DNA of 64,000 bases, taken from Halohasta litorea. GTDB taxonomy: Archaea > Halobacteriota > Halobacteria > Halobacteriales > Haloferacaceae. Position 1 is the stretch's first letter. Every line of letters starts with the position of its first letter. The stretch covers positions 744,001 through 808,000 of the forward strand of contig NZ_JANHDJ010000001.1 in assembly GCF_024494645.1 (NCBI RefSeq), read 5' to 3'. The translations under genes and the position numbers were made by a program. Of this stretch, positions 48,370 through 53,904 are shown one piece after another. A model generated the notes under the pieces. The model saw only the letters and a program-made list of their open reading frames with translations. It searched no databases and was not told where the DNA came from.

Positions 48370-49533
48370 TTACTTTTCGATGATGCTTTCCTCGACGGCC
48401 TCGCCGAAGTGTCGGGCCACGTCCTCGTAGTACAGCAGCATCTCGTCGCCAGCTTCGAGATCAGTGACGGCCTTTCGGCCCTCGCTGGTCGAGACTTTGA
48501 TCGTCTCGGCGTTCTGCAGCAGCGTCTCGATCCGATCGCCGTCAACGTCCAGCTCGACTCTGAACATCGGCCGTTTCTCGATCTTCACGCGGCCGACGAT
48601 CGCCTCGCGGGTGTTGCCCGCGGTGTCGACGACCTGAACCTCGTCACCGCTTTTGAGTTCGGCGAGGTATTTCGTGCCGCCGTCGGGCGTCCGGATGTAG
48701 GCGTGGACCGCACCGGCGTTGACCCGGAACGGCCGAGAGGCGACGTACGGCGACTTGGCGGTTTCGGCGTGGACGAAGAAGAGTCCGCGGGACATCGAGC
48801 CGATCAACATCCCCTCGTCGTGATCCATCAGGCTCCCGGTGTCGATACAGACCCGGTCGGCCATCCCGGTGCGTTCGACCTCCAGGACCTCGCCGTACTG
48901 GAGATCCAGCGTCTCGCGCTCGGCGGCATCCCGGACCTCGACGGTCTCTCTGATCTCGTCGGGGTTGTCGGTGTCCAGTAGGACGCCGTCCGCGCCGAGT
49001 TCGAGCGTCTCGAAGGCGGTCTGGGCCTCGTCGGCGGTCGTCACGCCCGCCAGCAGGTCGGTCTCCTCGCCGATTCTGGCGATCAGGTTCTCTAGGGGAA
49101 TGATCGTCCAGTCCTCGCCGATGACGATGGTGTAGTCGGCGTCGTGGGCTGCGGCCTCGGCGAAGGCTTCGTACTCCTGATCGAAGATCCGGACGTAAGC
49201 ACCCTGTGCCCGGTTGTCACTGTGTCGGAGCGTCGTCAGATCCGCAGAGCCGGAGAAATCCGAGGGCAGATCGACCGTTCCGTCGCCCTCGCCGTCTTTC
49301 CCGACGAAGTAGGCGTCGGCGACTGCCGTCTCGCTTTCGGCCTCGTCGACCATGTCGGCGTCCGATCGAAAGGCGGCGACGTTGATGTCGCCGAGTTCTC
49401 GGACCCGGCCGACATCGCTTTCGTCGACCAGTACCCAGTCGACGCCCGCCTCGATCGCGGCTGTGATTCGCTTTTTACGTGTCTCCCACTCGCCGACCGT
49501 GTCGTCGGCCTTCAACCAAACCGTTCGCGTCAT
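48370..49533 (-). CDS. 3-dehydroquinate synthase II (archaeal AroB')
   Basis: A 387-residue archaeal DHQ synthase. It starts TRTVWLKADDTVGEWETRKK, has the Lys-containing barrel-like first half with DYTIVIGEDWTIIPLENLIA near 132-151, and CIDTGSLMDHDEGMLIGSMSRGLFFVHAET in the second half (positions about 232-261). With ADH synthase it replaces the classical DAHP route: it deaminates and cyclises 2-amino-3,7-dideoxyheptulosonate to 3-dehydroquinate. Placed directly after the ADH synthase gene, it completes the start of aromatic amino-acid synthesis beside trpCBA. Confidence 0.93.
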   Translation of the reverse strand: MTRTVWLKADDTVGEWETRKKRITAAIEAGVDWVLVDESDVGRVRELGDINVAAFRSDADMVDEAESETAVADAYFVGKDGEGDGTVDLPSDFSGSADLTTLRHSDNRAQGAYVRIFDQEYEAFAEAAAHDADYTIVIGEDWTIIPLENLIARIGEETDLLAGVTTADEAQTAFETLELGADGVLLDTDNPDEIRETVEVRDAAERETLDLQYGEVLEVERTGMADRVCIDTGSLMDHDEGMLIGSMSRGLFFVHAETAKSPYVASRPFRVNAGAVHAYIRTPDGGTKYLAELKSGDEVQVVDTAGNTREAIVGRVKIEKRPMFRVELDVDGDRIETLLQNAETIKVSTSEGRKAVTDLEAGDEMLLYYEDVARHFGEAVEESIIEK

Positions 49534-49601: not shown

Positions 49602-50396
49602 TCAGGCTTCGACAGTCAGCCCGGCGGCCGCGAGTGCGTCCTCGGCGTCCATATCGTCGTGAATGACCGCCGATACCGCACGCGTGATCGCCTCGGGGTC
49701 CTCGTGTTGGAAGATCGACCGTCCCATCGAGATGCCTGCCGCGCCCGCATCCATCGCACCCCGTACCATCTCGACGGTTTCGGCGTCAGTCCCCGGGCTC
49801 CCCCCGGCGATCACGATCGGGAGAGTCGTCGACTCACAGACGTGCTGGAAGCTCTCGGTATCGCCGCTGTAGGCGGTCTTGACGACGTCCGCGCCGAGCT
49901 CCTCGGCCAGTCGGACGGCGTGGCCGAGATACTCCGGCTCGTCGCCCTGAATGCCCGGCCCACGGGCGTAGGCCATGGCCAACACGGGGATGCCGTAGCG
50001 GTCGGCCTCACCGGTGAGTTCCGCGAGGGCTTCGATCTGGCTCGGCTCGTAGTTCGAGCCGACGTTGATGTGGAACGAGACCGCATCAGCGCCCGCGCGG
50101 ATCGCTTCTTCGATGCTGCAGGTCACCCGCTTGTCGTCTTCGTCGGGGCCGATAGACGTCGAACCGTTCATGTGGACGATGTAGCCGCTGCCGTTTTTGT
50201 GCGGATGGACGCGGTTGGCGACACCCTTCTGGGTGAGGACGGCGTCGGCACCGCCGCTGGTGATGGATTCGACCGTTCCTTCGAGATCTTTGAGGCCGTT
50301 GACGGCTCCAATCGTGAGCCCGTGATCCATTGGGACGATCAGGTAGCGACCGTCTGTGGAGATGCGTTCGAGTCGTGCGCTGAGTCCTGCGGACAT
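49602..50396 (-). CDS. 2-amino-3,7-dideoxy-D-threo-hept-6-ulosonate synthase (ADH synthase)
   Basis: A 264-residue class I aldolase-like enzyme. It shows RYLIVPMDHGLTIGAVNGLK near residues 17-36, the Schiff-base Lys in GADVVKTAYSGD near 168-179, and GGSPGTDAETVEMVRGAMDA for phosphate binding. Members were formerly annotated as fructose-bisphosphate aldolases. It feeds the adjacent DHQ synthase II. A 92-base gap from trpA, with possible TATA-like TACATAG (about 50433-50439), suggests it may have its own promoter. Confidence 0.92.
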   Translation of the reverse strand: MSAGLSARLERISTDGRYLIVPMDHGLTIGAVNGLKDLEGTVESITSGGADAVLTQKGVANRVHPHKNGSGYIVHMNGSTSIGPDEDDKRVTCSIEEAIRAGADAVSFHINVGSNYEPSQIEALAELTGEADRYGIPVLAMAYARGPGIQGDEPEYLGHAVRLAEELGADVVKTAYSGDTESFQHVCESTTLPIVIAGGSPGTDAETVEMVRGAMDAGAAGISMGRSIFQHEDPEAITRAVSAVIHDDMDAEDALAAAGLTVEA

Positions 50397-50462: not shown

Positions 50463-50501
50463 GATCAGGCGGAGTCGATGTGGGTCGATCAGGCGGAATC
50501 G
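50463..50501. repeat. 15-bp direct repeat at the trpA stop
   Basis: GATCAGGCGGARTCG occurs at 50463-50477 and 50487-50501. The second copy carries the trpA stop codon. It looks like a short duplication of the trpA 3' end. Confidence 0.5.
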
Positions 50502-51355
50502 GCATCGGCGATGTCGGCGTTTCGACGCGCCGCGCCTTCCCGGGTGCCAGCGGCGAGCTCACGGGCTTTCGCAGCCAGTTTCTCGGCCGTCTCGTCGACT
50601 GGCCGCTCCGAGTTGACTCCCGCGGCGACGATATCGACCAGGGCGCTGCCGACGATAATGCCGTCAGCTCCGTTGGCGACGATTCTGGCTGCCTGATCGC
50701 CCGAGGAGATTCCGAATCCCACCGCTTTCGGTACGTCCCACTCCGCGAGCCGCTGGAGGCTCCGGGTCGTCTGATCCGACACGTCGGTTTTCGCGCCCGT
50801 GGTGCCGAGCCGCGCCTGGACGTAGACGTACCCCGAGACACGCTCCATCATCTCTTCGAGTCGGTCACCCTCGGTCGTCGGTGCGACGATGAAGACGAGA
50901 TCGAGCCCGTGTTCGTCGCAGGCCGCCCGGAGCGGGTCTGCCTCCTCGGCCGGGAGATCGGGAACCACGAACCCCGAAATACCGACCTCGGCGGCGCGCT
51001 CGACGAAGGCTTCGGGTCCGGGCTCGCCCCCTCGGGAGCGTCCGTACTGGTAAATAAGATTGTAGTAGGTCATACAGACGAGCGGCACGTCGACATCCAG
51101 CTCCTCGACGAACTCGAAAAAGCGGTCGGGGGTCATCCCACCCTCTAGGGCACGGACGATCGCGTTTTGGATCGTCGACCCCTCGGCGATCGGCTCCGAA
51201 AAGGGCAGGCCGAGTTCGATGATGTCCGCACCGCCGCGGGCCAGCGCCTCGACGTAGGCCTTCGAGGCCTCATAGTCGGGGTCGCCGACCGCGAGATACG
51301 GGATGAACGCGGGGCCGTCGGCGAACGCCGCGGCGATGGCTTCGTTTTCGGCCAT
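50489..51355 (-). CDS. trpA: Tryptophan synthase alpha subunit
   Basis: A 288-residue TIM barrel cleaving indole-3-glycerol phosphate. The catalytic Glu is in [16 protein letters not shown] near residues 40-55. In bacterial TrpA the second acid is Asp60 in an LADG context; here the position is Glu (IAEG). The phosphate loops [14 protein letters not shown] and IIVGSALVD are intact. Its ATG abuts the trpB stop (TAG-ATG), so translation is coupled. It is longer than bacterial TrpA by an acidic or Ala-rich tail. Confidence 0.94.
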
Positions 51356-52594
51356 CTAGATCCCCTCCGAGAACATCGACATATCCGGCGCGTTCGGGAT
51401 CTCGCGGGCCTCGGTCTCCTCGATCGCCGACTGGAGGTCCTTGTCGCCGCGGCCGGAGACGTTGACGATCACGCTCCCCGACAACTCCGCGTGGTGTTCT
51501 TCGAGATAGCCGAAGGCGTGGGCCGTCTCCAAGGCGGGGATGATCCCCTCCGTCTGGGAGAGCCGATGGAACCCTTCGAGGGCGGCATCGTCGTCGACCG
51601 CCACTGGCGTCACGCGGTCCTCATCGACCAAGTAGGCCAACTCCGGCCCGACACCGGCGTAATCGAGCCCCGAGGAGATGCTGTGGGACTCCATGATCTG
51701 GCCGACGGAATCCTGGAGCAGCTTCGTTCGCGCGCCATGCAGAACCCCTTCGTCGCCAGTCGACAGTGAGGCGGAGTTGGGCGCGACACCGGCCTCCTCA
51801 TCGACCGCCAGCGAGGAACCGCCCGCCTCGACCGCGTAGAGGTCCACGGAGTCATCATCAACGAAGTTCGCAAACGCGCCCATCGTGTTCGAGCCGCCGC
51901 CCGCACACGCGATGACCGAATCCGGCAGGCCGCCGAGCTTCTCGTGGGCCTGCTCGCGGGCCTCCTCGGAGATGACGGCCTGGAAATCCCGGACCATCGC
52001 CGGGAACGGATGGGGACCGACGACGCTGCCGATGACGTAGTGGGTCGACTCGACAGTTGCGGCCCAGTCACGCATCGTCTCCGAAATCGCCTCTTTAAGC
52101 GTGCCGCGACCGGCTGTCACCGGCTTGACGTCCGAGCCGTTGAGCTTCATTCGGAAGACGTTGGGTCGCTGGCGGTTGATATCCCGCTCGCCCATATAAA
52201 TGGTGCAGGGCATATCGAGGTGGGCCGCGGCCATCGCGGTCGCGGTGCCGTGTTGGCCCGCACCGGTCTCGGCGATGATGCGGTCTTTGCCCATATATTT
52301 CGCCAGGAGGACCTGTCCGAGGGCGTTGTTCAGTTTGTGTGCGCCGCCGTGCAGCAGGTCCTCGCGCTTGAGGTAGACGTCGAGGTCGTAGCGCTCCGAG
52401 AGTCGGTCCGCGCGCTGGAGCGGGGTGGGCCGTCCCCCGAAGTCCGCCAGTCGCTGGCGGAACTCGTCCATGAACCCGTCCTCGTTATCCAACACGTACC
52501 GCTGGTAGGCGTCGTCTAACTCCTCGATCGCGGGCATCAGTGCCTCGGGTACGTACTGTCCGCCGTAGTCGCCGAACTTGCCGTCAGTGCTCAT
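51356..52594 (-). CDS. trpB: Tryptophan synthase beta subunit
   Basis: A 412-residue PLP enzyme (TrpB1 type) joining indole and serine. It starts [18 protein letters not shown], has the PLP Lys in [31 protein letters not shown], and the phosphate-binding [16 protein letters not shown] 52594 overlaps the end of trpC by 11 bases. The start with GxFGxYGGxxVPE is the standard TrpB1 beginning, so a further upstream extension is rejected. Confidence 0.96.
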
Positions 52595-53354
52595 TGTGTG
52601 CTCCTGTAAACCGCTCTGTGTTCGTCGTTGGATCGCCGTCCATGATGGCAGTTCCGATGAGCAGGCCATCGGCCCCCGCCTCGCGCATTCGCTGTACGTC
52701 TTCGACCGTCGACACGCCACTCTCCGCGATCAGTGTCACGTCCTCAGGTGCTTTGGGGGCCAGTTCCTCGAACGTCCCGAGGTCGACCTCCAACTGCCCC
52801 AGATCACGGTTGTTGATGCCGATAATCGACGCGCCTGCTTCGACCGCCGCCGTCAGTTCGGCTTCGGTGTGGACCTCGACCAGCGGCTGGAAGCCACGGT
52901 TCTCGGCGGCCCGAACCATCGGTTCGAGGTCGTCGCCCAGGAAGCGGGCGATCAGCAGCACCACGTCGCTTTCGACCGTGTCGAGCTGGGCCTCACGCAG
53001 GAGGAAATCCTTCCGCAGCACGGGGACGTCGACCGCTGCCCGAATCCGTTCGAGGTTTGCCACGGAGCCGCCGAAGTGGTCGGGTTCAGTGAGCACGGAG
53101 AGGGCGGCGGCCCCGCCCTCGACCATCGCTTCGGCGAGCTCGACCGGATCCCCCGTATTCGTGCCCTCCGTGGTCGGACTCGTGGGTTTGACTTCCGCGA
53201 TGATCGGCACGCGTCCCCGCGATTCGGTGGCCGCAAACGCCGCTGGCAGCGAGCGGGCTTCGACCGACACTCGGCTTTCGCCGCCCGACCGCTCGGCGGC
53301 CGACGCCAGGATCTCCTGGACTGCTGGAGCCAACTCATCCGCAGTGTAGTTCAT
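52584..53354 (-). CDS. trpC: Indole-3-glycerol phosphate synthase
   Basis: A 256-residue barrel. It shows [15 protein letters not shown] near residues 50-64 (the SPS-type Lys region), [18 protein letters not shown] near 104-121, [17 protein letters not shown] near 173-189 and [16 protein letters not shown]. It is the first gene of trpCBA. Three phased TGTAC sites sit directly upstream over the predicted promoter, and ATG 53354 probably starts a leaderless mRNA. Confidence 0.95.
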
Positions 53355-53355
53355 C

Positions 53356-53385
53356 TATGTACACTGATGTACGTATGTGTACATA
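53356..53385. promoter_or_regulatory. Phased TGTAC operator at the trpCBA promoter
   Basis: TGTAC occurs at 53358, 53368 and 53378, exactly 10 bp apart. The outer copies form a perfect inverted repeat TATGTACAC-N12-GTGTACATA. The cluster begins 2 bases upstream of the trpC ATG and covers the likely TATA/start region (minus-strand TTATGTACA). A repressor bound here would block transcription. The divergent MGMT-like gene (ATG 53443) could share it. Confidence 0.6.
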
Positions 53386-53442
53386 ACACTTCCGCCACGA
53401 GACGGAACCCTTGAAGGCACCCAAGGCGTGAGCGGGTGTATA

Positions 53443-53904
53443 ATGACTCCCGCAGGAATCTTCGCACGACAGTTCGATTCGCTCGACTGCGTGGTGCAAC
53501 TGGGCATTGCGAGCGGCCGGGCGATCGACGTCTCGTTTCCGGAGGACGTGCCGCCCGACGCCGAGGCCGACCACGAGCTGCTGGATGCCATCGAGCGGTA
53601 TCTCGGCGGGGACCTGTCTGCGGTCGACGACGCCGAACTCGGCCTGACGGTGCCGACCGACCAGCGCGCGGTGCTCGAAGCCCTCGACTCCGTGCCGCCG
53701 GGCTCGACGGTCACGGTCTCGCGGCTCGCCCGGATCGCCGGGCTCGACCCCGCGGACGACGACGATATCGCAACGGTTCGGGATGCGCTCCGAGAAAATC
53801 CGCTGCCGATATTCCTGCCGGATCACCGCGTTCGTGACGGACAAGGGGCGACGCCGCCACAGATCGCGGCGGCGCTCCGACGGCTCGAAAACGAGACGAA
53901 CTAA
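53443..53904 (+). CDS. MGMT/Ogt-like protein lacking the acceptor cysteine
   Basis: A 153-residue protein whose C-terminal half resembles the DNA-binding domain of O6-alkylguanine methyltransferase. It has SVPPGSTVTVSRLARIAGL near residues 83-101 and VRDALRENPLPIFLPDHRVRDG near 112-133. The catalytic PCHRV motif is replaced by PDHRV, so direct alkyl transfer is not possible by the known mechanism. Alkyltransferase-like (ATL) proteins also lack this Cys and flag lesions for excision repair; a similar role is an inference. ATG 53443 is chosen. It converges with and overlaps the next gene by 4 bases. Confidence 0.78.
   Translation: MTPAGIFARQFDSLDCVVQLGIASGRAIDVSFPEDVPPDAEADHELLDAIERYLGGDLSAVDDAELGLTVPTDQRAVLEALDSVPPGSTVTVSRLARIAGLDPADDDDIATVRDALRENPLPIFLPDHRVRDGQGATPPQIAAALRRLENETN

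Follow-up and report, generated by a model that had tools for sequence, protein, structure and literature searches.

The trpC locus and its promoter

The window, that is the whole stretch of 64,000 nucleotides that was analysed, carries on its minus strand a block of tryptophan and aromatic amino acid genes headed by trpC (Table 1). Its fourth gene, aroA' of the OE1472F type, encodes the first step of the haloarchaeal aromatic pathway. In H. salinarum, trpCBA-OE1472F forms one operon, and the window has the same gene order (PMC4162585).

Table 1. Features of the trpCBA-aroA' block, its promoter and its divergent neighbour
Feature	Coordinates	Strand	Evidence
3-dehydroquinate synthase II, OE1475F-type	48370..49533	-	Downstream, same direction; Pfam DHQS 2.3e-137
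DeoC/LacD-family aldolase, OE1472F-type aroA'	49602..50396	-	Pfam DeoC 5e-49; gene order
trpA	50489..51355	-	ORF; tblastn matches in trp operons
trpB	51356..52594	-	ORF, predicted start; tblastn to trpB genes that follow trpC in relatives
trpC, indole-3-glycerol phosphate synthase, first gene of the operon	52584..53354	-	ORF; Pfam IGPS 1.7e-69
trpC start codon	53352..53354	-	ORF; Pfam IGPS; position conserved in relatives
TRP box 3, start-codon proximal, TGTACA	53358..53363	-	Sequence; 3 bp upstream of trpC ATG
TRP box 2, middle, CGTACA on trpC strand	53368..53373	-	Sequence; weaker box in relatives
TRP box 1, distal, TGTACA	53378..53383	-	Sequence; overlaps TATA-like element
Probable BRE/TATA of trpC, CGGAAGTGTTATG (relatives CGCAAGCCTTATG)	53382..53394	-	Conserved columns, from which the probable assignment is made
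MGMT-like DNA-binding-domain protein, divergent	53443..53904	+	Pfam DNA_binding_1; PDHR replaces catalytic PCHR

Three copies of TGTAC, beginning at 53358, 53368 and 53378 on the plus strand, precede trpC, and direct reading confirmed the exact 10-bp spacing given by the initial annotation. On the strand of trpC, the order is TGTACA-N4-CGTACA-N4-TGTACA, and the hexamer nearest the ATG (53354-53352, minus strand) stops 3 bp short of it. The middle box matches TGTACA at 5/6 positions and is among the best copies when compared with those of relatives. The outer sites had also been described as a longer inverted pair, and TATGTACAC (53356-53364) and GTGTACATA (53377-53385) are indeed present, separated by 12 bases and together spanning 53356-53385. 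This extended repeat was rejected as the functional unit: the pairs flanking the hexamers cannot form in 29 and 32 of the 45 relatives, and the longer repeat is thus incidental. The unit is the hexamer TGTACA, itself a palindrome, which recurs in tandem every 10 bp.

The array is not a product of chance. When up to 3 mismatches were allowed, the triple pattern was found 5 times in the window, each time at the trpC array, where 0.22 were expected, and this count was reached in 0/100 shuffles of the window. The exact triple (0 mismatches) occurs once in the whole 3.81-Mb genome, and the single genomic occurrence of exact TGTACA-N14-TGTACA is again the trpC array.

With respect to the promoter, box 1 shares bases with a TATA-like GTTATG (53387-53382) that is preceded by a BRE-like CGGAA, which makes it plausible that the array covers the TATA element and the start point. 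In the trpC promoter alignment, CGCAAnnCTTATG corresponds to the conserved columns at -40 to -28 relative to the ATG. The promoter is probably leaderless.

Conservation among haloarchaea

The trpC promoters of named species and of 59 haloarchaeal genomes were compared, giving 65 distinct intact promoters. The initial annotation made conservation of the motif upstream of trpC in relatives a test of its reading, and conservation holds throughout the sample: the array stands at the same place in 65/65 promoters, with two strong TGTACA boxes on either side of a weaker one and a 10-bp period. The haloarchaeal alignment has the consensus CGCAAnnCTTATGTACAnATnAGTnCRTYRRTGTACAnTAATG. Box 1 agrees with TGTACA at 5/6 or 6/6 positions in all 65, and box 3 at 6/6 in 41, 5/6 in 21 and 4/6 in 3; box 2, with the consensus nGTnCR, is the weaker one across relatives. 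In boxes 1 to 3 the columns carry on average 1.78, 1.18 and 1.65 bits of information, compared with 0.12 over the 100 columns lying farther upstream. As in the window, the relatives' arrays overlap a TATA-like element and end 3 bp ahead of the ATG. Four near relatives lack a match to the sequence model described below; since a degenerate array stands at the same place in each of them, they are not exceptions.

A second array, at trpD, bears on the other test, whether the motif recurs at other aromatic promoters. In the Halohasta litorea genome, TGTACAgactTGTACA is found upstream of trpD (G000:C11:594198-594213), the gene that heads trpDFEG, and five phased box positions are present at trpD in 59/59 haloarchaeal genomes, this one included. 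There, a TATA-like CTTAAG stands apart from the boxes, which follow downstream of it exactly 10 bp apart (59/59 genomes), in the order TGTACn, TGTACA, AAcaCG, cGTACA, TGnnCA and then the ATG. The trpC and trpD arrays thus differ in the number and placement of their boxes but have the hexamer and the 10-bp register in common. This combination argues for a DNA-bound assembly that depends on the helix face, and against a core-promoter element or an RNA hairpin.

The paired hexamers are also largely specific to trp promoters. Across the 59 haloarchaea, TGTACA-N14-TGTACA gave 28 matches in 26 genomes (0 for a reversed-pattern control), and 23/28 of them are situated immediately ahead of trpC or trpD. 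From the trpC promoters a 29-column sequence model was made; scanned over 25 genomes, it ranked trpC first and trpD next, with little else. Because both the matches and the model scan are nearly confined to trpC and trpD, the haloarchaeal regulon looks like two operons.

The non-trp matches are scattered (L120, L127, L139, L199 and L200). One of them, L199 (G047:C1:2197732-2197757), is an exact TGTACA-N14-TGTACA at the leuA-like start of a 2-isopropylmalate/citramalate synthase-like gene, and possibly arose by chance. Further candidate targets in the Halohasta litorea genome (among them C33:5477, C12:11145, and purF at C23:351899) were sub-threshold and without support from relatives, and were treated as chance.

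A candidate regulator

According to the initial annotation, no regulator is encoded beside the array, which is right as far as known regulators are concerned. Clustering of the ORFs in the trpC and trpD neighbourhoods revealed no recurrent transcription-factor neighbour besides the MGMT-like gene. A TrpY-family gene nevertheless sits elsewhere in the genome. It came from a search of the Halohasta litorea genome for ACT proteins, which returned a 166-residue protein (G000:C11:46447-46944) scoring 233.9 bits against NCBIfam TrpY_fam NF053754 (cut-off 180) and 1.4e-7 against Pfam ACT. The make-up of the TrpY family is an N-terminal helix-turn-helix-like region combined with an ACT amino-acid-binding domain. 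TrpY_fam occurs as a single copy in 145/147 Halobacteriota genomes and, among 14 control genomes, in H. volcanii and M. acetivorans only. Residue 149 is a glycine in the Halohasta litorea protein and in most relatives; in M. thermautotrophicus, the replacement G149R is reported to break the inhibitory assembly. TGTACA is the TRP-box consensus of Methanothermobacter TrpY.

For the M. thermautotrophicus protein, binding to TRP boxes in the trpY-trpE interval and repression of trp in the presence of tryptophan have been described (PMC6737238). The same work, from 2019, mentions the existing haloarchaeal TrpY homologues as an unexamined branch and states that the homologue of T. kodakarensis does not bind trp or take part in its regulation (PMC6737238).

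Arrays in other Halobacteriota

Outside haloarchaea, TGTACA pairs likewise stand at aromatic promoters, where they precede trpC, trpD, trpE, trpB2 and aroA'. In Methanoperedens and other methanogens, TGTACA boxes spaced at 10 or 20 bp lie just upstream of trpC. The pattern TGTACA-N4-TGTACA gave 36 matches in 147 Halobacteriota genomes, against 10 for the control, and 20/29 of the loci read adjoin one of the five genes just named. At the trpE locus with a TGTACA pair, trpE is divergent from pheA.

Several individual loci may be mentioned. In a methanogen (L288, G080:C1:598875-598890), TRP boxes are found directly ahead of a trpB2 gene; trpB2 is a target of TrpY in Methanothermobacter. At L295, L297 and L304, TGTACA pairs stand before a DeoC-type aroA' (methanogen family f15) or between divergent pheA and trpE (f24, another methanogen family).

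To assess the co-occurrence of arrays and TrpY, sets of four phased boxes close to the gene that heads each trp operon were scored and compared with shuffles. Among the multi-gene trp operons of TrpY-bearing non-haloarchaea, 17/24 have an array near the first gene, 15 of these within the promoter window and 2 more where the trpE start had been placed too far in. The 7 TrpY-bearing operons without an array near the first gene fall in five families (f16, f17, f18, f20 and f30). By the same four-box scoring, no array was found near the trp operon of either TrpY-less genome (one family, two genomes).

In family f20, trpY and trpC are divergent neighbours (G079: trpY 1433-1912 on the minus strand, trpC from 2090 on the plus strand), yet at this locus (L324, G079:C83) there is no TGTACA array between the two genes. 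The recognition-helix region of TrpY in f17 and f20 reads DRKVV instead of DRRVV, which, together with the missing array at L324, suggests a changed site preference of TrpY in these two families.

Proposed mechanism

The reading of the array as the repressor site of a tryptophan-responsive regulator, made in the initial annotation, is supported by these comparisons. We propose that the array is a TRP-box operator which an unlinked TrpY-type tryptophan repressor fills so as to block access to the promoter, a reading to which we assign a probability of roughly 0.77. The array and its register, its conservation, its restriction to trp and aro promoters and the presence of the regulator gene are direct observations; as to the working parts, we infer TrpY as the binding protein, tryptophan as its effector and promoter occlusion as the means of repression. 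In such a scheme, TrpY encoded at G000:C11:46447-46944 would bind with one unit per TGTACA and, when tryptophan is plentiful, would fill the helically phased array at the trpCBA-aroA' promoter. Bound in this way, it would lie over the TATA element's 3' half and over the site where transcription from this near-leaderless promoter presumably starts, an occupancy expected to exclude TBP, TFB and RNA polymerase. A drop in tryptophan would lead TrpY to release the trpCBA-aroA' operon. The same protein would act on trpDFEG through the longer array, in the same 10-bp register.

Regarding expression, the scheme is favoured by H. salinarum, in which both trpCBA-OE1472F and trpD1FE1G1 are induced without aromatic amino acids (PMC4162585). 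Against it stands the trpCBA promoter of H. volcanii, which has been described as not tightly regulated (PMC13147458). The T. kodakarensis homologue, inactive at trp, and the 7 TrpY-bearing operons without an array, f20 among them, also speak against it.

Alternative explanations

The array could be a real trp operator and yet have another binder, namely an Lrp/AsnC-family regulator such as LrpA2 (trh1) that would occupy the phased sites as multimers. Phased-site binding is common among Lrp proteins. LrpA2 is an amino-acid-responsive Lrp/AsnC regulator of H. salinarum tied to aromatic starvation; when aromatic amino acids are withheld its gene is induced 14.9-fold, and the authors of that study suggest that it regulates the pathway (PMC4162585). 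However, LrpA2 has no known sites and no demonstrated link to TGTACA boxes, whereas TrpY presence and box arrays coincide, some families excepted. The hexamer is, in addition, the TRP-box consensus of TrpY, and it precedes trp operons and trpB2 in methanogens just as in the TrpY type system. An Lrp-type binder is, on this evidence, unlikely.

The second alternative concerns the divergent MGMT-like protein, in which the alkyl-acceptor cysteine is replaced by aspartate, as a local regulator of trpC. Divergent genes often encode local regulators, and this one adjoins trpC, usually in divergent orientation, in most haloarchaeal loci, with an almost invariant PDHR. The array is nevertheless unchanged at loci without a nearby MGMT-like gene (e.g. 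L029, L033, L037, L117 and L208), methanogen trp operons without such a gene still carry it, and the MGMT fold is not known to bind DNA in a sequence-specific way. The neighbour is thus probably not the regulator, and a role for it as the local one seems very improbable. Very little credence is likewise given to a variant in which the PDHR protein would be a sequence-specific co-repressor or a partner of TrpY on the phased TGTACA array, although, if true, it would mean that a DNA-repair fold has been recruited as a regulator of the tryptophan operon.

As a separate observation, the MGMT-like gene is divergent from trpC in most haloarchaea, and PDHR stands for PCHR in nearly every copy, with one PAHR. 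These PDHR proteins form a conserved and apparently catalytically dead family.

A third possibility is that the boxes belong to the core promoter, as a variant TATA element or initiator, and are no regulator site at all. Box 1 does overlap the TATA-like sequence, and box 3 lies right beside the ATG. At trpD, however, the TATA-like CTTAAG is separate from boxes that keep the same 10-bp register downstream of it, and in haloarchaea the paired hexamers occur at few places other than trp promoters; we consider this explanation very doubtful. Least probable of all is an action of the motif in RNA, as a hairpin or attenuator formed from the outer inverted repeat, for although the pair in the window can be extended to 9-bp arms, the outer pairs are unpaired in most of the 45 sequences as given above, covariation remains within control, the array is located no farther downstream than the expected start point, and the trpD boxes form a tandem series that stands at another distance from its TATA element.

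Relation to known systems

The kind of system proposed here, a TrpY-type repressor on TRP boxes, is already known from a methanogen. The TrpY/TRP-box system of Methanothermobacter thermautotrophicus was reportedly worked out by Xie and Reeve in 2005 and by Karr et al. in 2008. The array resembles that system in having repeated TGTACA, the consensus of its TRP boxes, over a trp promoter and a TrpY-family protein in the genome, and also in that trpB2 is a further box-bearing gene, in the methanogen relative L288. It differs from the type system in three respects. First, trpY is unlinked and lies behind hisB, about 750 kb from trp on the contig and not divergent from the trp operon, whereas family f20 has the type-like arrangement. 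Second, there are two operons, trpCBA-aroA' with 3 box positions and trpDFEG with 5. Third, the promoter is probably leaderless.

The aromatic amino-acid regulator of Thermococcales, Tar (TK0271), also has trp and other aromatic operons under its control (PMC6737238). Unlike the proposed repressor, Tar is an activator, and it recognises TGGACA-N8-TGTCCA, a palindrome that was not found at the trpC array, where TGTACA recurs every 10 bp. In the literature searched, mostly outside subscription journals, neither a conserved haloarchaeal operator of two operons with an unlinked regulator nor a binding test of a haloarchaeal TrpY was found.

The comparison ties an operator that all haloarchaea examined share to a specific and nearly universal candidate regulator and carries the link across much of the phylum, and this reach suggests that the TRP-box system is old in these archaea. 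It also makes haloarchaeal trp regulation directly testable, Haloferax volcanii having a TrpY_fam member, and may be relevant to genetic work in H. volcanii, which employs tryptophan as an inducer (p.tna) and together with the trpA marker.

A last observation concerns the place of trpY itself in the Halohasta litorea genome. The gene follows hisB by 6 bp, and a tryptophan regulator may therefore be co-transcribed with histidine biosynthesis; since only these 6 bp separate the two genes, autoregulation of trpY from a promoter of its own is unlikely.
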